Source: a bacterium (GTDB lineage: Bacteria > Vulcanimicrobiota > Vulcanimicrobiia > Vulcanimicrobiales > Vulcanimicrobiaceae). Taken from it: a stretch of DNA of 47,658 nt. This document shows positions 1-8,373 of the stretch, piece by piece. The notes under the pieces are model-generated. The model saw nothing but the letters and a program-made list of their open reading frames with translations, was not told where the DNA came from and made no database searches. Numbering within the stretch: the first letter of the stretch is position 1; every line of letters starts with the position of its first letter. The stretch covers positions 1 to 47,658 of the forward strand of contig JAGWSR010000069.1 in assembly GCA_028869385.1 (NCBI GenBank), in the 5' to 3' direction. Made by a program: the position numbers and the translations under genes.

Positions 1-57
1 GGCTTGCACTGTGTCGGCTTGGGCTTGCACTGTGTCGGCTTGGGCTTGTTTTGTGTC
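1..57. repeat. 21-bp tandem repeat, 2.7 copies
   Basis: Two perfect copies of a 21-bp unit (GGCTTGCACTGTGTCGGCTT + G) occupy 1-21 and 22-42, and a degenerate third copy runs to about 57. It abuts a copy of the dispersed repeat at 53-78. The period is a multiple of three, so the frame read on the minus strand gains QAQADTV heptads without a frameshift. The array probably continues outside the window. Confidence 0.85.
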
Positions 58-186
58 ACCCTGAGCTTGTCGAAGGGGCGCCAGGCGGTGCTGCAGGCGT
101 ATCAAGGCAGTGCCCAGCGCGAAGAAGAGCGCGCCGAGCGCGAAGACGCCGAGGAAGACGAAGATCGCGGGGTTATTCGACAGCAA
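1..186 (-). CDS. Small single-pass membrane protein, partial (C-terminus beyond window)
   Basis: A frame open from a TTG at 186 to the window edge (62 codons without a stop) starts 14 nt inside the end of the giant Ig-repeat gene. Its beginning is LLSNNPAIFVFLGVFALG followed by ALFFALGTALIRL, a convincing transmembrane helix ending in basic residues. The helix is followed by QHRLAPLRQAQGDT and then a repeated QAQADTV heptad. The tail is encoded by a copy of the dispersed repeat and its 21-bp tandem extension, so the repeat has been absorbed in frame. Start choice is weak: no Shine-Dalgarno is visible, and translation would have to be coupled to the preceding gene. No family is recognised. By position it is the fourth gene of the operon with the two Ig-repeat proteins and may be their second membrane partner. 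The hydrophobic stretch is the only strong evidence for coding. Confidence 0.4.
   Translation of the reverse strand, partial: MLSNNPAIFVFLGVFALGALFFALGTALIRLQHRLAPLRQAQGDTKQAQADTVQAQADTVQA
53..78 (+). repeat. Dispersed repeat unit (CACCCTGAGC...GTCGAAGGG family)
   Basis: One copy of the window's dispersed element: GTGTCACCCTGAGCTTG followed by TCGAAGGGG. The same core recurs near 18.2-18.6, 19.4-19.9 and 31.6 kb. Here it falls inside the open frame of the partial membrane protein and encodes PLRQAQGDT on the minus strand. Confidence 0.85.
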
Positions 187-3100
187 GATGAGCGGCGCCG
201 CGCAGTGCTTCCAGCACGTGCGCGAGCGCTTCGTCGAGCGTACGGTTGACGCTCGACGTGAGGACGCGATGGAACTCTTCGATCGGAAGTTCGTTGAGCA
301 CCGAGAAGACGTTGAGTAACTCCGCGCGGTAGGCTTCGAGGTCGTCGGAGCGCTCGCCGTCGTGATAGATCGTCGTCCCGAGCAACTGCGCGTTGATGAG
401 CCACGGTACGACCGCGCCGACCGGCGCGGTCTCGAGCTCGGGCAGCAGCGCGCGCACCACGTCGAGTTCGACGCCGCCGACGATGCGCACCATACCGCTC
501 GGCGCCGGTTGCGGCGATGCCGACGGCGCGAAGGCCAAGTCGTCGACGAGCGCGCGCATCGCTTCGCGGCCTTCACGATCTTCGATATCTTTGCCGGTGA
601 TCGTGAGGCGCGGCATGCGTAAGCGCACGAAGAGCTTTTCGAGCGGCGCGCGCAAGGCACGGCTGGCGCTTGCGAAGGTGGCGCTGACCTGCGCGGGCGC
701 GCCGAGCGCGTGCTCCGGAAAGAGCATGCGCAGCGCAAAGAGGTGCTGCACGAGCCCGCCCGCGCTGTCGCTGCGTTCGAGCATGCGAATCGTGTTGGTC
801 AGACGCTCCGCGCTGAAATCCACGTAGAGCAGCGGCGTCGGAAGTTCGGCGCTCGCCCCAATGGCGGACTGTACCGTCTCGGGGAGCACCGGCTGCGCCG
901 CGACGATCTCCGCGATCGCTCGCGGCGGCGTCGGCGCTTCGGGCGCGGGGGCGGGGGCGGGGGCGGCGAGCGCCTCGGGTTCGCGCGGCGCGTCGAACGC
1001 TTCGGCCGGGGCGGAAACCGGAAAGATGCGCGCGATCGAGATCGGCGTTCCCGCCGTCGATTCGCTCAAGCTGGGTGCCGACTGCACGCGCACGGTCGGC
1101 GCGACGACGGCGTGCGTCATACCGTCGGCCCATTCGAGTACGGCGCGCGTGTCGAGCGGCGTGCCCGCGGCGAGCGGCGACATCACCATCATCTCCCAGC
1201 GCAAGCGTAACTCGACGCCGGGATTCACGTCGGCGAGCACGAGTCCGCGCGCCGACCAAAGCTGCGAGGTGCCGGCGTCGTCGCCGAGCACGATGCCGTT
1301 CAAAAAAGTGGAAGACGGCACGTACACCGCGAGGTTCGTCGGCACGACGCGCACCGTCAAACGGTCGGCCGGACCGTCGCCGTCGTTACGCAAGCGCAAT
1401 TCGTAGAAGAGGCGTTCGCCCGCGTTCACCGTCTCCGACGGAATCGCGAAGAGCTGCGTGCTGGCTGCAAATTGCGCCTGTGCGAACGTCGGTACCTCGA
1501 GCGGCGCAAACTGGACCGGCGTGATCCCGCGTCCGTGCAGCCATCCGTCGAGTTGCAACGTGCGCGCGCCGCTCGTTCCCGCGAGCAGGCGCAACGTGAT
1601 GCGCGCTTCGTGCGTGGATTCGGCCGGAATATCCGGCAGCGCGAGACCGTCGCGATCGCGACGCGCGTCGACGGCGCGCTCGATGGCGAGATCCGGCGGT
1701 AGCGTGAGCGAGAGCCGCGCGTCGCGCAGCACGTCGCTGCCGGCATTGTGCACGCGCGCGATCACGTCCACGGTGCGATGCGGACGCAGCGGTTCGTGCG
1801 CGGCGAGCTCCCATCCGACGCTCTCGACGTGCGGGCGCGAACGCACCACGATCGTCGCCGTTCCGAGATCCACGCCGCCGTCGGCGTGTTCGAGAATGAC
1901 GCCGAGCGTCGCGTTCGAACGATCGGCGACGCGCGACGCGATGCGCGCGCGCACCGTAAAGATGCGTTCGAGGTGCGGCTGCACGACGCCGAGCGCGATC
2001 GGCTCGCCATAGGCGAAGAGCTCGTCGCCCTCGCCCACGCGAACCTCGGTCAGTTGCAGGCCCGGCGCGATGCGCAGCGAGACGTCGGATTCGGGCGCGG
2101 TGCCATCGTTATAGACGTGAATCGCGAACGAGACCTCTTCGCGCGCGTGCGCGATTCCGCGATCGGCTTCGACGAAGTTGCGCGCGCGGCTGAAGCGCGG
2201 CGCGACGCGCACCGCGAGTCGGCGCGCGAAGGCACGCTCGCCGGTCTTCCATCGCAGCGTCGCATCCACCGGAAGCGCGGTCGCCCCCGGCGCGGGGACG
2301 GCGACGGTCGCGGCGATGCCGACCTCGACCATGCGTCCCGCCGGCATCGCGCCGAGCGCGAAGTTCAATCCCTCGATGGCGTCGTCGCCGACGGGTTGAC
2401 CGTCGACGTGCGCCGAGCCCGGCGCGTAGATGAGGCCCGGCGGCAACGCGAAGGCGATCTGCACGCGCTCCGCGATTCCGGTGCCGACGTTGATGGCGCG
2501 CACGACCATGGGCACGCGCATGCCCGGCGTCACCACGTCATCGCACTGCAGCACGAGCGCGGTCTCGTCGCCGCCGAAATCCACCGGCGACACGACCACG
2601 ATCTCGGCCGACGCGATCGCGAATTCGCTCGTCTCGCGCGAACCCACGCTGCCCGCGGCGCGAATGCGCGTGCCGTCGACGAGCGGCGAATCGATCGTCG
2701 CCTGATACTCGACGAGCACCGACTGCTCCGGCGCGAGCCGCTCGCTCGCGATCGTGGTGCGGTCGTAGTCGAACGCTTCGCCCTCGACGCCCGCCACCAC
2801 GCGCCCGTCGATGCGCGCGCTATGCGCCACGTAACTCGTGTACTCGGGGACGGGCAGCATCACCACGACGTCGTGCGCGCTCGACGAACCCGTGTTGCGC
2901 ACGGTCGCGCGTACGGTGATGACGTCGCCGGGCTTGGGCTGCGGCGGCGCCGAGAGCGTGACCAGCGTCGCGCTGTTCTGCAATTCGGGCCGGCTGCGCA
3001 CCGTGACGCGCTCGACGTTCGATGCGGCGAGATCGGTCTGATCGGTTACGAGCGCCGCTTGAAAACGCAGCACGCTCGCGTCTTCGATGGTGTCGTTCAC

Positions 3101-3427
3101 GCGGAAGGTACAGGTGACGCGGCGCGCGCCGTTCGGCTCGAGATCGGCGACCGGAGCGCCGTGAGGATCGACGAACGAGGCCCCTTCGACCAGCGGCGCG
3201 TCGTCGATGAAATCTCCGCCTTCGACGTGCTCGACGCCCTGAGGATGCGCGAAACGCACGCGGACACCGGTTGCCGCCGCGCCGCCGAGGTTCGAAAACG
3301 AGAACTGGACGCGGATCGTGTCGCCCGGCTGCGCGCTACGCGCAGGCTCGACGACGAGCGTGCGCAGGGTCTCGCCCAAAGCGGGAGATCCGGGAGCGAA
3401 GAGACCGGTCAACGACGTCGGAGCCAC
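173..3427 (-). CDS. Giant Ig-like repeat protein (DUF11/CARDB-like), paralogue 1
   Basis: About 1,084 aa. I start at the GTG at 3427 because GGAAAGGAAGG lies just upstream and the N-terminus (LFAPGSPALGETLRTLVV) then aligns with the paralogue at 3873-7112; the frame is open further upstream, but in low-complexity Arg-rich shadow sequence. Roughly six repeats of 110-140 aa each begin with a pattern like PGDxIxVxxxxxNxGxxxAxxVxV and continue to LPxGLxYAPGSAxVDGxPV. This is typical of DUF11/CARDB/'conserved repeat' beta-sandwich domains. A Pro/Ala-rich linker (about residues 770-830) leads to a helical C-terminal domain (QHLFALRMLFPE, LEKLFVRLRMPRLTI, VVPWLINAQLLGTTIY) also present in the paralogue. 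There is no signal peptide, transmembrane helix, lipobox or sorting motif, which is odd for a fold usually found outside cells. Function unknown; the operon context suggests a structural or scaffold role with two small membrane proteins. Confidence 0.85.
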   Translation of the reverse strand: MAPTSLTGLFAPGSPALGETLRTLVVEPARSAQPGDTIRVQFSFSNLGGAAATGVRVRFAHPQGVEHVEGGDFIDDAPLVEGASFVDPHGAPVADLEPNGARRVTCTFRVNDTIEDASVLRFQAALVTDQTDLAASNVERVTVRSRPELQNSATLVTLSAPPQPKPGDVITVRATVRNTGSSSAHDVVVMLPVPEYTSYVAHSARIDGRVVAGVEGEAFDYDRTTIASERLAPEQSVLVEYQATIDSPLVDGTRIRAAGSVGSRETSEFAIASAEIVVVSPVDFGGDETALVLQCDDVVTPGMRVPMVVRAINVGTGIAERVQIAFALPPGLIYAPGSAHVDGQPVGDDAIEGLNFALGAMPAGRMVEVGIAATVAVPAPGATALPVDATLRWKTGERAFARRLAVRVAPRFSRARNFVEADRGIAHAREEVSFAIHVYNDGTAPESDVSLRIAPGLQLTEVRVGEGDELFAYGEPIALGVVQPHLERIFTVRARIASRVADRSNATLGVILEHADGGVDLGTATIVVRSRPHVESVGWELAAHEPLRPHRTVDVIARVHNAGSDVLRDARLSLTLPPDLAIERAVDARRDRDGLALPDIPAESTHEARITLRLLAGTSGARTLQLDGWLHGRGITPVQFAPLEVPTFAQAQFAASTQLFAIPSETVNAGERLFYELRLRNDGDGPADRLTVRVVPTNLAVYVPSSTFLNGIVLGDDAGTSQLWSARGLVLADVNPGVELRLRWEMMVMSPLAAGTPLDTRAVLEWADGMTHAVVAPTVRVQSAPSLSESTAGTPISIARIFPVSAPAEAFDAPREPEALAAPAPAPAPEAPTPPRAIAEIVAAQPVLPETVQSAIGASAELPTPLLYVDFSAERLTNTIRMLERSDSAGGLVQHLFALRMLFPEHALGAPAQVSATFASASRALRAPLEKLFVRLRMPRLTITGKDIEDREGREAMRALVDDLAFAPSASPQPAPSGMVRIVGGVELDVVRALLPELETAPVGAVVPWLINAQLLGTTIYHDGERSDDLEAYRAELLNVFSVLNELPIEEFHRVLTSSVNRTLDEALAHVLEALRGAAHLAVE

Positions 3428-3471
3428 GAGCCTTCCTTTCCCTTCGCCGGGCCGTGCAACCTCGAAGTGCG

Positions 3472-3876
3472 TCAGTCGAGGAGCGCGAGTGTCTGCGCGA
3501 TGCGGTCGGCGCGCGGTCCGGGATTGCGCGCGAGGAAGGCTTCGACCGCGGCGCGGCGGCCGCTCGCGGCGAGCGCGTGCGCCGCCGCGGTGGCCACCGC
3601 GTCGGCCGGATCGTCGAGGGCATGTTCGAGGAGCCGCCGCGAGCGTTCGTCGTCGAGCGCGGCGACCGCGAAGACGAGGTCGCAACGACGCGATTCGGAG
3701 AGGCCGGCAAACTCGTCGCCGGCCTCCTGCGTCCACGCGGTCGAGGTCTGGAGCGGCGGACCCTCAGGACGCCGCACCGGCTCCGCCGGCGCACGGCGCG
3801 GCGCGAAGTACGCGTACGCGCCGATCGCGAGGCCCGCGAGCAGCACGAGGACGAGCGCCGCGGTCATGCCGCTCAT
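3472..3876 (-). CDS. Small membrane-anchored helical-repeat protein
   Basis: 134 aa. An N-terminal transmembrane segment (TAALVLVLLAGLAIGAYAYF) is followed by a Pro-rich linker of about 25 residues. The rest is a small helical domain with HEAT-like character: a short helix at SRRCDLVFAVAALDD, then RRLLEHALDDPADAVATAAA, then AVEAFLARNPGPRADRIAQT. The ATG overlaps the stop of the upstream giant gene by four bases (ATGA), and the next giant gene begins 44 nt downstream with its own Shine-Dalgarno, so all three are one transcription unit. The topology (one N-terminal helix, helical domain presumably cytoplasmic) would suit an adaptor that tethers the signal-less Ig-repeat proteins to the inner membrane; this is inference. 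The HEAT resemblance rests on pattern only. Confidence 0.75.
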   Translation of the reverse strand: MSGMTAALVLVLLAGLAIGAYAYFAPRRAPAEPVRRPEGPPLQTSTAWTQEAGDEFAGLSESRRCDLVFAVAALDDERSRRLLEHALDDPADAVATAAAHALAASGRRAAVEAFLARNPGPRADRIAQTLALLD

Positions 3877-6800
3877 CGTTCGGATGCGCCCGCGTGCAAC
3901 GACGTGCGAACCACGTCGAGCGCGGCATCGAGCGTCACGTCACGACGGCGCTGCAGCGCGTCGAGAAACTCGCTCGCCTCGGTTTCGGCGAGTTCGTCGA
4001 AGCGCGCGACGAGCCGCGTGCGATAATGCGCCAACTGCGCGCTCGCGTCGGGCAAGAGCCGCGCCATGATCGCCCACGGCAGCGCGGTCGCGAGATCGCA
4101 CTCGCTCAAGCGCTCGGTGAGCTCGGCGAGCTCGTGCGGATCGAAACCGCCGCGCAAGGTGAGCGCCGCGCCCGGCATCTCGGCCGGCGTGCCGCGCACG
4201 CCGCTGACGTCGTGCAGTAGGCGCTCGAGCGTCGCGCGCAGCGACGGCGTCTCCACGTCGCGCGGCGCGATCACGCGATCCGGCACCTGGAGTTTGATGA
4301 AGAGTCGATCGGTCTCGTCGCGCAACGCTTCGCGCATCGAGGCGGTCGCGCCGAGGTGCGTGTCGCCGATCGCTTCGGGGAAGAACGCCCGGATCGCGAA
4401 GAGGTGGGTCACCAACCCTTCGAAGCGCGCCTCGTCGAGAAAGCGCAGAACCCGCGCGTGGCGCTCCGACGTAAAACTCACCGAGACGCCGACGCGTCCG
4501 CTCGCAATCGCTCCGTCGAAGACGCCGCCGTCGCTCCCAACGAGCGCCGGAACCTCATCGTCGTCCACCCACGAGCGCGGCGGTTCCGCCGCCGCCACCG
4601 GCGTCGCCGGCGGAAGCTCGACGAACCGATCTTCGGTGAGCGCCTTCACGCCGCCGAAGGACGGGCCGATCATGCCGTCGAGTCCGAACGGCAGACCGGG
4701 GATCGCATTCGCGAAGACCGGCGCCGCGCGCACCTTGAGATCGTTCGACGCGATCTCGTCCGCTCGTTCGCCGTCGTAGGCGACTAGCGCGAGCCGCGCG
4801 AGCGTCTCGCCCGCGCCGAGATCGTTGTGCGCGACGTCGCGCCAGCGAATGGTAGCCTCGACGCCGGGATCGACGTCGTTGAGCACGATGCCGCGCTCGC
4901 TCGCGAGCGCGGAGCGCACGCCGACGTCGCGAATCGGAACGTCGTTGACGGTCGTCGAGTTCGGAACGTAGATCAGCGACGACGGCTGCTCGCAACGAAT
5001 CTGCACGCGACGCGCGGGGCCGTCGCCGCCGTTGCGAACGTGGAGCACCCACTCGATCGTCTCGCCCGCGTCGACTACGTCGCCCGGTACGCTGCGCAGC
5101 GTGCCGACGGAGAAATCAGGCTCCGCCGTCGTCGCGATCGTCAGACGTTCGAGCGGCACGGGCAGCATCGCATCGGCGGTCAGCACCGCGTCGATCGTCA
5201 CCGGAAACTCTTTGGCCAGACTACGCAACAACCGCAGCCCCAATCGCGCCTCGACGCTCGCGCCGGGCGGCACTTCGCCGAAGACGAGTTTGGATTTTTC
5301 GCGCGTCGCGCCATCGACGGTTTCGAGCCGCGCTTCGGGCGAGACGTAGAGGCGAACGCGCACGTTGTGCGCGATGTCGCTGCCGACGTTCGTCAGACGA
5401 ACCGTGACGTCGGCGAGTTGATTCGGGCGAAGAACCTCGCCGCTCTCGAGGTGCAGCTTCGAGCTTGCCGCAGCGAAGGCGGGATGCGAGTCAACGCGCC
5501 ACGTCACGTCGCCGAGCGTCGTCTCGCCGAGCTCGCGCGAGTGCGCGCTCGCGCCGACGCGTAGTTCGCTGCGATCGGGATAGGGTGCGCGAACGCGCGC
5601 GCGGAGTGCGAAGCGGCGTTGCGCGTAGGGTTCGAGCACGCCGACCTCGGCGGCGTCGCCGTCGAGCGTGACGCGCCCGTTGCGTTCGTAGAGACGAACC
5701 TCTTCGAGAGCCGGATCGAGACGCAGGTGCAGCACGACGTCGCTCGCCGCGGCGCTGCCGTCGTTGGCGAGCACGATCGTCGCCTCGAGCTCTTCACCCG
5801 GATGCACCGTCTCCGCGCCGGCGCGCGCGATCGTGTTGCGGCGCGCCGCCAGCGCGGGCTCCGCGCGAATCGCGACCGTGCGCTCGAATCGACGCTCGGC
5901 ACCCTCGCCGGGTTGCCAGGCGAGCGTCGCCGTGAGGTCGAGCGTCGTGCCTTCGGGCAGCGGCGCGCTTACGACGGCTTCGCAGCGCAGCTCGACGCTC
6001 TCGTCGGCATCGATCCGTCCGAGATCGAAGAGCAGGCCCTTCTTCGACTCGCGCACGGGACGCCCGTCGATCTGGGAGGCACCGCGGACCGGCAGCAGTG
6101 CGTCGGGCAGCGCGAGCGTTGCGCTCACGCTCTCGGCAGCGGCGGTTCCGGCGTTATGCGCGGTGAGCACGAGCGTGACGCGCTGACCCGGACGCACGTC
6201 GTGCGCCGGCTCGACCACGAAGGTCGTGCGGTCGTCGCCGAAGTCGGGGGCCGCGCGCACGACGAGCGTGGCGGGCTCGATCTCGAAGGCGGCGGTCTCC
6301 TGCGATGCGACCTGCGCGCGCGCCACGATCGCGGTGCCGTCTTCGAGCGGCGATGCGATCCGGACGCGATAGACGAGCGTCGCGCTCGCACTCGCGGCGA
6401 GCGACGGCGCGACGATCGGCGCGTAGAGCCGGTCGAAGGGCAGGCCGAAATCGCGCTCGATCTCGCGACCGTTCACGCGCGCCGAATTGGGCACGTAGGT
6501 CGCGTGCTCGGGGATCGGCGCCACGACGACCACGTCGCGCGCGCTCGACTCGCCCGCGTTGTGCAGGCGCACGGTTATCTGGGCCTCGGTTCCGGGCGCG
6601 GGCTCGGAGCGCGGCTCGATCGCGATCGTGGTGAGCGCGTTCCGCAGCTGCGGGCGGCTGCGAGCGATGAGCCGGACGACGTTCGAGCCGACCGGTGGTA
6701 CTTCGAACGAGGCCACGGCCGCTTGCAGCTCGATCGTGGTACCGTTCTCGATGGCGCCCGCCACGCTGTACGCGATCTCGATGCGCCGCTCTTGACCGGG

Positions 6801-7112
6801 TGCCACGTCACCGATGTGGGCTCCGCTGCGTGCGAGCAGCGGCGAGTTCCCCGCTTCGTCGTCGAGATCGACGCCGTCGAGTTGACCCGTCCCCACCAGA
6901 TAGACGAGACCGTCGGGAAGATTGAAACGCACGCGGACGCCCGTCGCGGGCGCGCCGCCTTGATTGCGGAACGTGAACGTGGCGCGCACCGTCATTCCAG
7001 GTTCCAACTCGCGGTCGGGCGAAACGACGAGCGTTCGGAGGCCCTCCGGCAGCGTCGGTGCTCCTGGCGCGAAAACTTCCGACAGGGTGCGCATGACGCG
7101 CGTTTCGCGCAT
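3873..7112 (-). CDS. Giant Ig-like repeat protein (DUF11/CARDB-like), paralogue 2
   Basis: About 1,079 aa from the ATG at 7112 (AAGGTGG lies 10 nt upstream; a GTG at 7160 and an ATG at 7094 are in frame). The layout matches the product of 173-3427. About six beta-sandwich repeats each start with PGxxVxxxxxxxNxG, for example EPGMTVRATFTFRNQGGAPA, RPGQRVTLVLTAHNAGTAAA and HPGEELEATIVLANDGSAAA. A linker and a helical C-terminal domain follow (THLFAIRAFFPEAIGD, DRLFIKLQVPDRVIAPRDVE, TALPWAIMARLLPDAS). No signal peptide, membrane helix or anchor is seen. The pair evidently arose by tandem duplication and has diverged. It is the first gene of its operon and is divergent from the aminotransferase across a 64-bp gap. 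A TATTGT -10-like element lies near 7159-7164 on this strand. Function unknown. Confidence 0.85.
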   Translation of the reverse strand: MRETRVMRTLSEVFAPGAPTLPEGLRTLVVSPDRELEPGMTVRATFTFRNQGGAPATGVRVRFNLPDGLVYLVGTGQLDGVDLDDEAGNSPLLARSGAHIGDVAPGQERRIEIAYSVAGAIENGTTIELQAAVASFEVPPVGSNVVRLIARSRPQLRNALTTIAIEPRSEPAPGTEAQITVRLHNAGESSARDVVVVAPIPEHATYVPNSARVNGREIERDFGLPFDRLYAPIVAPSLAASASATLVYRVRIASPLEDGTAIVARAQVASQETAAFEIEPATLVVRAAPDFGDDRTTFVVEPAHDVRPGQRVTLVLTAHNAGTAAAESVSATLALPDALLPVRGASQIDGRPVRESKKGLLFDLGRIDADESVELRCEAVVSAPLPEGTTLDLTATLAWQPGEGAERRFERTVAIRAEPALAARRNTIARAGAETVHPGEELEATIVLANDGSAAASDVVLHLRLDPALEEVRLYERNGRVTLDGDAAEVGVLEPYAQRRFALRARVRAPYPDRSELRVGASAHSRELGETTLGDVTWRVDSHPAFAAASSKLHLESGEVLRPNQLADVTVRLTNVGSDIAHNVRVRLYVSPEARLETVDGATREKSKLVFGEVPPGASVEARLGLRLLRSLAKEFPVTIDAVLTADAMLPVPLERLTIATTAEPDFSVGTLRSVPGDVVDAGETIEWVLHVRNGGDGPARRVQIRCEQPSSLIYVPNSTTVNDVPIRDVGVRSALASERGIVLNDVDPGVEATIRWRDVAHNDLGAGETLARLALVAYDGERADEIASNDLKVRAAPVFANAIPGLPFGLDGMIGPSFGGVKALTEDRFVELPPATPVAAAEPPRSWVDDDEVPALVGSDGGVFDGAIASGRVGVSVSFTSERHARVLRFLDEARFEGLVTHLFAIRAFFPEAIGDTHLGATASMREALRDETDRLFIKLQVPDRVIAPRDVETPSLRATLERLLHDVSGVRGTPAEMPGAALTLRGGFDPHELAELTERLSECDLATALPWAIMARLLPDASAQLAHYRTRLVARFDELAETEASEFLDALQRRRDVTLDAALDVVRTSLHAGASER

Positions 7113-7176: not shown

Positions 7177-8373
7177 ATGCTCGCTGTTCATGAGAATCGC
7201 ATCGCGGACGCCGTCTCGCGTCTCGGCGCGGAAAACGCGTTCCAGGTGCTCGCGCGTGCGCGCGAGATCGAAGCGACCGGTCGTCGCGTCGTGCACATGG
7301 AGATCGGCGAGCCGGATTTCGACACGCCCGAGCACATCAAGAAGGCCGCCGTCGAATCGATGATGGCGCACGACACGCACTACACGCCCTCGGCCGGCAT
7401 CGTGGAGCTGCGCGAGACGATCGCCGAGTACGCGTCGCGTCTGCGCAAGATGCCGAAGGCCTACACCGCCGCGAACGTGACCGTGTCGCCGGGCGCGAAG
7501 CCGATCATTTGGAACATTCTCTCGGCGATCATCAATCCGGGCGACGACTTCATCTATTTCGACCCCGCCTATCCGGCCTACGGCTCCGCCTCGACCTACC
7601 TCCAGGCGAACGTCATCCGCATTCCGCTCCTCGAGTCGCGCAACTGGCGCATGGATCTCGACGAGCTCGCGAGCCGCGTGAGCGACAAGACCAAGGCGGT
7701 GGTGATCAACTCGCCGCACAACCCGACCGGCGGCGTGCTGATGCGCGAAGATCTCGAGCGCATCGCCGAACTCGCGCACAAGCACGACTTCTTGGTGATC
7801 TCCGACGAGATCTACAGCCGCAATTTCTACCTCGACAGCGACTTCGTCTCGATCGCGTCGTTGCCGGGCATGCAAGAGCGCACGATCATCGTCGACGGCT
7901 TCTCGAAGGCCTATGCGATGACGGGCTGGCGTCTCGGCTACGCGATCATGCCCGAGAAGCTCTGCCAAACGGTGACGCTCTTCAACAACAATACGTTCAG
8001 CTGCGTCGCGACCTTCGTGCAGAAGGCCGGTATCGCCGCGCTCACCGGGCCCGACGAACCCGTGCAGAAGATGAACGCGATCTTCCGCGAGCGCCGCGAC
8101 CGCCTGGTGACCGGCCTCAATCAGATCCCCGGCATGAGCTGCACGCTCCCCGAGGGTGCGTTCTACGCCTTCCCCAACGTGCAGCAGATCACGCAAGACG
8201 ATAAGGCGCTCGCGAGCTTCTTGTTGGAAGAGGGCGGCATCGCGTGCGGCGGCGGCTCGTCGTTCGGACCGGCCGGTAAGGGTTACCTGCGCTTCAGCTA
8301 CGCGGCGTCACTCGACGACATCGACTACGCGCTGGCGCAGATCCGCGACGTACTCCCCCGCTTCAAAGGCTAG
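7177..8373 (+). CDS. PLP-dependent aminotransferase, class I/II (aspartate-aminotransferase-like)
   Basis: 398 aa, full length for fold-type I aminotransferases. Visible landmarks are the N-terminal GEPDFDTPEHI, the substrate-side YTPSAGIVELRE, the cofactor motifs INSPHNPTGG and VISDEIYS, the Schiff-base lysine in DGFSKAYAMTGWRLGY (Lys244), and the carboxylate-binding arginine in GYLRFSYA (Arg372). These place it in the AspC/PatA-type subgroup that moves amino groups between amino acids and 2-oxo acids. The exact substrate cannot be told; aspartate, alanine and aromatic amino acids are all possible. The ATG has AGAAGAGG a few bases upstream. It is transcribed divergently from the Ig-repeat operon and ends 9 nt from the convergent solute-binding gene. 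It is not linked to a biosynthetic pathway here. Confidence 0.9.
   Translation: MLAVHENRIADAVSRLGAENAFQVLARAREIEATGRRVVHMEIGEPDFDTPEHIKKAAVESMMAHDTHYTPSAGIVELRETIAEYASRLRKMPKAYTAANVTVSPGAKPIIWNILSAIINPGDDFIYFDPAYPAYGSASTYLQANVIRIPLLESRNWRMDLDELASRVSDKTKAVVINSPHNPTGGVLMREDLERIAELAHKHDFLVISDEIYSRNFYLDSDFVSIASLPGMQERTIIVDGFSKAYAMTGWRLGYAIMPEKLCQTVTLFNNNTFSCVATFVQKAGIAALTGPDEPVQKMNAIFRERRDRLVTGLNQIPGMSCTLPEGAFYAFPNVQQITQDDKALASFLLEEGGIACGGGSSFGPAGKGYLRFSYAASLDDIDYALAQIRDVLPRFKG

Follow-up and report, generated by a model that had tools for sequence, protein, structure and literature searches.

The window analysed here is a 47,658-nucleotide stretch of a Vulcanimicrobiaceae genome (contig C29 of a 3.08-Mb assembly, with position 1 at the contig end). 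Its positions 1-7112 carry four minus-strand genes, which encode, in order of reading, a giant protein (giant A), a small membrane protein (small A), a second giant (giant B) and a second small protein (small B). An earlier sequence-only reading had called this arrangement a giant-small-giant-small operon. The gene order is as it described, but the locus is better understood as a duplicated two-gene cassette, each unit consisting of a giant and a membrane protein with HEAT-like repeats. We think it moderately probable that this cassette encodes a membrane-tethered cytoplasmic scaffold; the binding of the C-terminal domain (CTD) of each giant to its HEAT partner, the tethering of the rod and its role as a scaffold are what we infer.

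In this model, each giant would be a rod inside the cell, with six Ig-like domains followed by a flexible linker and the CTD, and it would be co-produced with a dedicated inner-membrane partner, whose HEAT domain would lie in the cytoplasm. Docking of the CTD on the HEAT domain would tether the rod to the cytoplasmic side of the inner membrane, where the rod, either projecting or lying under the membrane, would hold or space client proteins. The CTD family may be used at several envelope machines, represented by pilus operons, flagellar cap/glycosylation loci and, for the giants, a par/aminotransferase locus. A membrane-tethered intracellular scaffold was one of two possibilities raised by the sequence-only reading, and it draws good support from the absence of signal peptides, the charged composition of the giants, the cytoplasmic C-termini of the partners, the conserved pairing and natural gene fusions. 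Below, genomes carry G-numbers (G000 is the window's own), loci L-numbers, contigs C-numbers, and families are f1, f2 and f3.

Signal-less giants built from DUF11-type repeats

The two predicted tandem paralogues of about 1,080 residues were found on the minus strand and are 35% identical to one another. Comparison of giant A with its counterpart in a congener (locus L036) gave dN 0.082 and dS 0.516 (non-synonymous and synonymous divergence; dN/dS ~0.16), and the corresponding ratios were ~0.18 for giant B and ~0.25 for small A. Therefore, both giants and small A are real genes under purifying selection. In Pfam searches, both giants matched DUF11, NPCBM_assoc and CARDB, with DUF11 E-values of 1.8e-33 and 2.7e-20; the DUF11 scores were 73 and 116 bits against a curated cut-off of 24.6, and NCBIfam also gave a significant repeat match (TIGR01451). 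The AlphaFold2 (AF2) model of giant A, built with 38 homologues, contains six beta-sandwiches (residues ~20-790), a disordered linker and a helical CTD; its predicted TM-score (pTM) of 0.35 leaves the arrangement of the domains uncertain (Table 1). The model and the family matches thus agree with the six repeats that had been read from the sequence. A match to the MXAN_5808 family serine peptidase (TIGR03900) was rejected, as it reached 27 bits against a cut-off of 661 and covered the repeat region only.

Long Ig-repeat rods of bacteria, DUF11 proteins among them, usually face outward, as adhesins and wall proteins. The giants share the rod repeat unit of the DUF11/CARDB/NPCBM-associated proteins (PF01345, PF07705, PF10633; TIGR01451) but differ from them in being highly charged and in lacking a signal peptide, anchor or sorting signal; a CTD and a membrane-HEAT partner are not described in that family. 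Within the first 60 residues we found no hydrophobic stretch (15-residue Kyte-Doolittle maximum 0.49-0.69), and no signal peptide or transmembrane (TM) segment was present in the giants across 30-odd loci, where the N-termini align, signal-free, across the order. In addition, the reading frame of giant A closes just before the divergent aminotransferase gene, which starts at 7177, and therefore leaves no room for an upstream signal peptide. Hydropathy, reading frame and the aligned starts of homologues all bear out the claim that the giants have no signal peptide, TM segment or anchor, and homologues with a signal peptide at a further upstream start, which would have counted against it, were sought and not found.

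Further DUF11 proteins, drawn from these or related genomes, served for comparison; three of them are exported with a signal peptide (L106, L108, L110). Charged residues make up 11.5-12.5% of these exported controls versus 20.6-24.6% of the giants, and serine, threonine and asparagine together make up 20-23.5% versus 11.5-15.3%. These controls, and the usual export of DUF11 proteins, are what could be said for the giants being ordinary surface proteins whose signal peptide was missed through a wrong start. With the frame closed upstream of giant A and the starts aligned and signal-free across the order, a signal peptide at an upstream start is excluded, and we find this explanation scarcely credible. 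Judged from their sequences, the giants are apparently kept inside the cell. We found no report of cytoplasmic DUF11 rods in the open-licence literature.

In Foldseek searches with the full giant model, the closest structures were Ig rods from inside the cell, those of the ciliary central apparatus (7som_D, E 3.5e-25). These ASH/MSP-type rods (7som, 7sqc, 9ijj) are likewise intracellular scaffolds of tandem Ig-like domains; they differ in being eukaryotic and in having neither a CTD nor a HEAT-TM partner. With a low global TM-score, the likeness may be taken as an architectural analogy from fold comparison.

Pairing of the C-terminal domain with a membrane-HEAT protein

The CTD of giant A, modelled alone, consists of a strand followed by helices, twice over, in keeping with the helical C-terminal domain that had been predicted. 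No relative was found in the PDB by sequence (best E 0.59) or by fold with Foldseek (best E 0.57, TM-scores of at most 0.24 among the matches listed). Pfam gave no consistent match across 40 members of the CTD family, and NCBIfam gave none either. A CTD profile detected the domain in 71 of 96 genomes of the class, all of them in f1 and f2 of one order, and it found no homologue in the sister family f3. A single scan of genome contigs with giant A returned four loci, three from Candidatus Eremiobacterota and one labelled only "bacterium". Giants A and B form separate clades across f1, which indicates that the duplication is old. The cassettes are also carried by G010, a single contig of 3,508,363 bp.

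The sequence-only reading had described the product of the first small gene as a 134-residue single-pass membrane protein with HEAT-like helices, coupled by an ATGA overlap. Small A does have one TM segment and that overlap, and it matches HEAT_2 weakly (E 0.0011; 19.7 bits, below the Pfam cut-off of 27.7). Across the partner family, HEAT_2 was matched in 7 of 10 members, and the family profile matched HEAT/alphaRep structures in the PDB with an E-value of 8.8e-36. The partners therefore resemble HEAT_2/alphaRep-type proteins (PF13646) by profile in their soluble domain; they differ in placing one to four helix pairs behind an N-terminal TM segment, and a cassette that joins them to a CTD protein is new. 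Positive charges after the TM segment predict an N-out/C-in topology for 34 of 35 small partners, the lone exception being a miscalled start. The missing signal in the giants and the C-in partners together place giants and HEAT domains, by prediction, on the same, cytoplasmic side.

The pairing itself is conserved. A script found a HEAT-type gene immediately behind the CTD in 45 of 51 copies; the small B genes of L036 and L037 were missed only through the overlap limit, so that 47 of 51 copies have a HEAT-type partner. This gene-neighbourhood survey could have gone against the sequence-only reading had the small genes not been conserved with the giants. The second small membrane protein stands in part: its TM segment is present, but the protein is not complete as called, since its frame from 186 to 1 is cut by the contig end. 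We assign small B to giant B because small-B relatives are TM-HEAT proteins.

At this contig end, the linker of small B also contains, in frame, a 22-bp repeat (CTTCGACAAGCTCAGGGTGACA) with 54 exact copies in G000; its reversed control has none there. A similar stretch, VILSVSKGG, seems to be present in the corresponding linker of L036.

Several natural variants dissect the cassette. The second copy in L043 (G020) is a CTD without a rod, with the TM-HEAT gene still next to it, and in L051 (G026) small A is fused to the CTD of giant B, an arrangement that is also suggested in the rest of genus g25. The rod is dispensable, because CTD-only copies and a HEAT-CTD fusion exist, and the conserved unit is the CTD with its TM-HEAT protein, the rod being optional. 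This fusion, together with one between a sister protein and its ATPase (see below), supports the view that the CTD lies close to the HEAT domain, and the sister protein close to its ATPase. Neither the CTD nor its pairing with a membrane-HEAT protein fits a known family in Pfam, NCBIfam or the PDB, and we therefore regard the family as new.

Two further observations concern giants elsewhere. At L056 (G006:C22:14853-18093), giant A has decayed, with an internal TAG and the CTD split off; the G006 genome is small and has no matches to pilB, pilC or FHIPEP either. Divergent giants in L063 and L092 (G021 and G010) lie beside clpP/clpX, a Crp-type regulator and a GGDEF gene.

The second possibility raised by the sequence-only reading was a cargo of non-classical secretion, with the CTD as export signal and the small membrane proteins as dedicated export factors. 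Outward-facing DUF11 repeats are the rule, the CTD is C-terminal as are several non-Sec export signals, and most genomes of the group carry a second FHIPEP protein. Against this, the giants have a cytoplasm-like composition, CTDs occur alone or fused to a membrane HEAT protein, and the sister protein occurs as a fusion with a cytosolic ATPase. There is no secretion apparatus beside the cassette, giant A occurs in G027 without any FHIPEP, and the partners look like anchors. We therefore give secretion a slim chance.

Table 1. Coordinates of the cassette genes, their parts and related features
Feature	Position	Strand	Remarks
Giant A (P0002)	3873..7112	-	~1,079 aa; conserved start 7094 (MRTLSEVF...)
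Six DUF11-type beta-sandwich domains, giant A	4725..7037	-	DUF11 E 1.8e-33; AF2 mean predicted local distance difference test (pLDDT) 85.6
Disordered linker between rod and CTD, giant A	4506..4721	-	pLDDT <50, residues 792-863
CTD of giant A	3876..4505	-	AF2 pLDDT 93.9, pTM 0.90; two strand-plus-helices halves
Small A (P0003)	3472..3876	-	134 aa; N-terminal TM, basic cytoplasmic flank, HEAT-like domain; ATGA overlap with giant A
Giant B (P0001), paralogue of giant A	173..3427	-	GTG start preceded by GGAAGG
CTD of giant B	176..850	-	CTD profile E 3.9e-87
Small B, TM segment only	1..186	-	C-terminal part lost at contig end; small-B profile 33 bits
Dispersed 22-bp repeat copy, small B linker	54..75	-	54 exact genome copies
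Class I/II aminotransferase, divergent	7177..8373	+	neighbour conserved at giant locus
SADMRLLELQR family loci	L121-L125, L138-L141, L143; window genome G000:C66:6236-7738 (L138)

Relatives at pilus and flagellar loci

CTD-HEAT pairs also occur in type IV pilus operons, where gene names were read from translations. In G019, G016 and G018, the order is pilM-N-O-P-Q, a short CTD, a TM-HEAT or HEAT gene and pilT, often followed by GAF/GGDEF genes. The pilQ-CTD-HEAT-pilT loci are L088, L090 and L091, with a similar order in L087; in G005, a CTD-HEAT pair lies downstream of a secretin. The window genome has a pilus operon without a CTD (L097). At L066 (G038), secretin, GGDEF and HD-GYP genes accompany a divergent giant and a HEAT gene. 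Vulcanimicrobium alpinus WC8-2 (3.50 Mb), the sole isolate of the phylum, bears type IV pili and lacks flagella (PMC9758169).

A second signal-less family, of ~500 residues, has the N-terminal motif SADMRLLELQR, one DUF11 domain and a CTD-like end. Its genes are flanked by those for an AAA_22 ATPase and a glycosyltransferase and are convergent to the genes for FliS, FliD and FlaG. The C-terminus of this family matches the CTD profile at E 5.4e-6, with one half aligned on the other half, a pattern that an internal duplication would produce. We take the ATPase to be ExeA/GspA-like, although Pfam gives only AAA_22 (PF13401). In L142 (G031), ATPase and SADMRLLELQR-family protein share one 888-residue frame, and this ATPase partnership sets the family apart from the giant locus, where no ATPase is present. 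In L062 (G056:C343), from another family of the phylum, the ATPase, the CTD-like part and the DUF11 part are encoded by individual frames next to one another: two AAA_22 ATPase genes are interleaved with one CTD-like frame and one DUF11 frame of eight repeats, after which comes a second CTD-like frame.

Nearly all f1 genomes, even those without flagellar FlhA, carry a second, lower-scoring FHIPEP protein (~630 bits; G000:C5:15471-17414 and equivalents), which is possibly a non-flagellar type III export gate.

Weighing the scaffold model

Several observations weigh against the scaffold model. In the Foldseek comparison, extracellular beta-sandwich proteins (complement, integrin) rank close behind the ciliary rods, and global TM-scores are low. 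HEAT support in divergent partners is weak, at 16-50 bits, and one G040-type copy and one L040 copy show that partners can be missing or missed. In favour of the model, the ATPase-linked family tracks flagellar FlhA (21/2/2/16 of 41 genomes, p 3.6e-7), as does full-length giant B (24/2/10/26 genomes, p 3.3e-7; at genus level 13/1/3/9, p 8e-4), in statistics that ignore phylogeny; "flagellar" FlhA here means the high-scoring FHIPEP class (>830 bits) of genomes with FliD loci. On the opposing side, intact giants are kept without pilB/pilC in G002 and G028, and giant A is intact in G027 even though flagella and the type IV pilus ATPase/platform are missing there (completeness 96-98% for G002 and G027, 86% for G028). 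G027, which is 98% complete, lacks any FHIPEP, and its T2SSE/T2SSF matches look Tad-like. With giants intact in genomes that lack pilB/pilC or flagella, the client of giant A would be neither machine.

The same genomes bear on whether the cassette serves the flagellum or type IV pilus exclusively, as a dedicated accessory that acts in positioning or motor control or as a glycosylation hub. In favour of this, pilus and flagellar loci contain sister proteins, full-length giant B is found together with flagellar FlhA, and L066 joins secretin, GGDEF, HD-GYP, giant and HEAT genes in one place. However, giant A remains intact where pilB/pilC are absent (G002, G028) and, in G027, where FHIPEP is absent as well, so we consider this explanation unlikely. 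On the strength of these three genomes we reject a strict link to the type IV pilus, and we reject a strictly flagellar role for giant A, which shows no co-occurrence with flagellar FlhA and is present without it in G004, G010, G014, G020 and G027. We keep the link of giant B to flagella as a correlation only.

A scaffold for cell elongation was suggested by the neighbouring genes: in most f1 genomes, mrdA-mreD-mreC-maf follow the cassette convergently, on the opposite strand, and a membrane-tethered topology would suit an organiser of the elongasome in f1. The mre genes are nevertheless on the other strand, and the f2 giant keeps the aminotransferase/thi/par side, while on its other side the mre genes give way to flagellin and other genes. 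This f2 gene order weakens the argument from mre adjacency, and an elongasome role appears quite improbable. Further along the window, positions 12345-47616 look, as read from translations, like an origin-proximal housekeeping region, with parA/parB, mnmG, mnmE, dnaA, dnaN, recF and gyrB and with BamA-, OmpH-, LpxD- and LpxC-like genes.

We therefore retain the membrane-tethered cytoplasmic scaffold. More tentatively, and by analogy, it is possible that the wider family forms a modular internal scaffold, in which CTD proteins with 0 to ~6 Ig domains would dock on machine-specific TM-HEAT or AAA ATPase partners and, acting at the cytoplasmic side of the inner membrane, would arrange pili, flagella and the cell pole or body. 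The giant scaffold might work like the hub proteins, such as FimV and HubP, that serve pili and flagella at the pole or membrane; Pfam and NCBIfam family searches of the window proteins turned up no FimV/HubP sequence features. A DUF11 annotation does not imply a surface location. If the model is correct, these proteins would represent a new type of bacterial internal scaffold, an order-wide family with dedicated membrane or ATPase partners, and would offer a handle on the arrangement of pili and flagella in the almost uncultured phylum Eremiobacterota.

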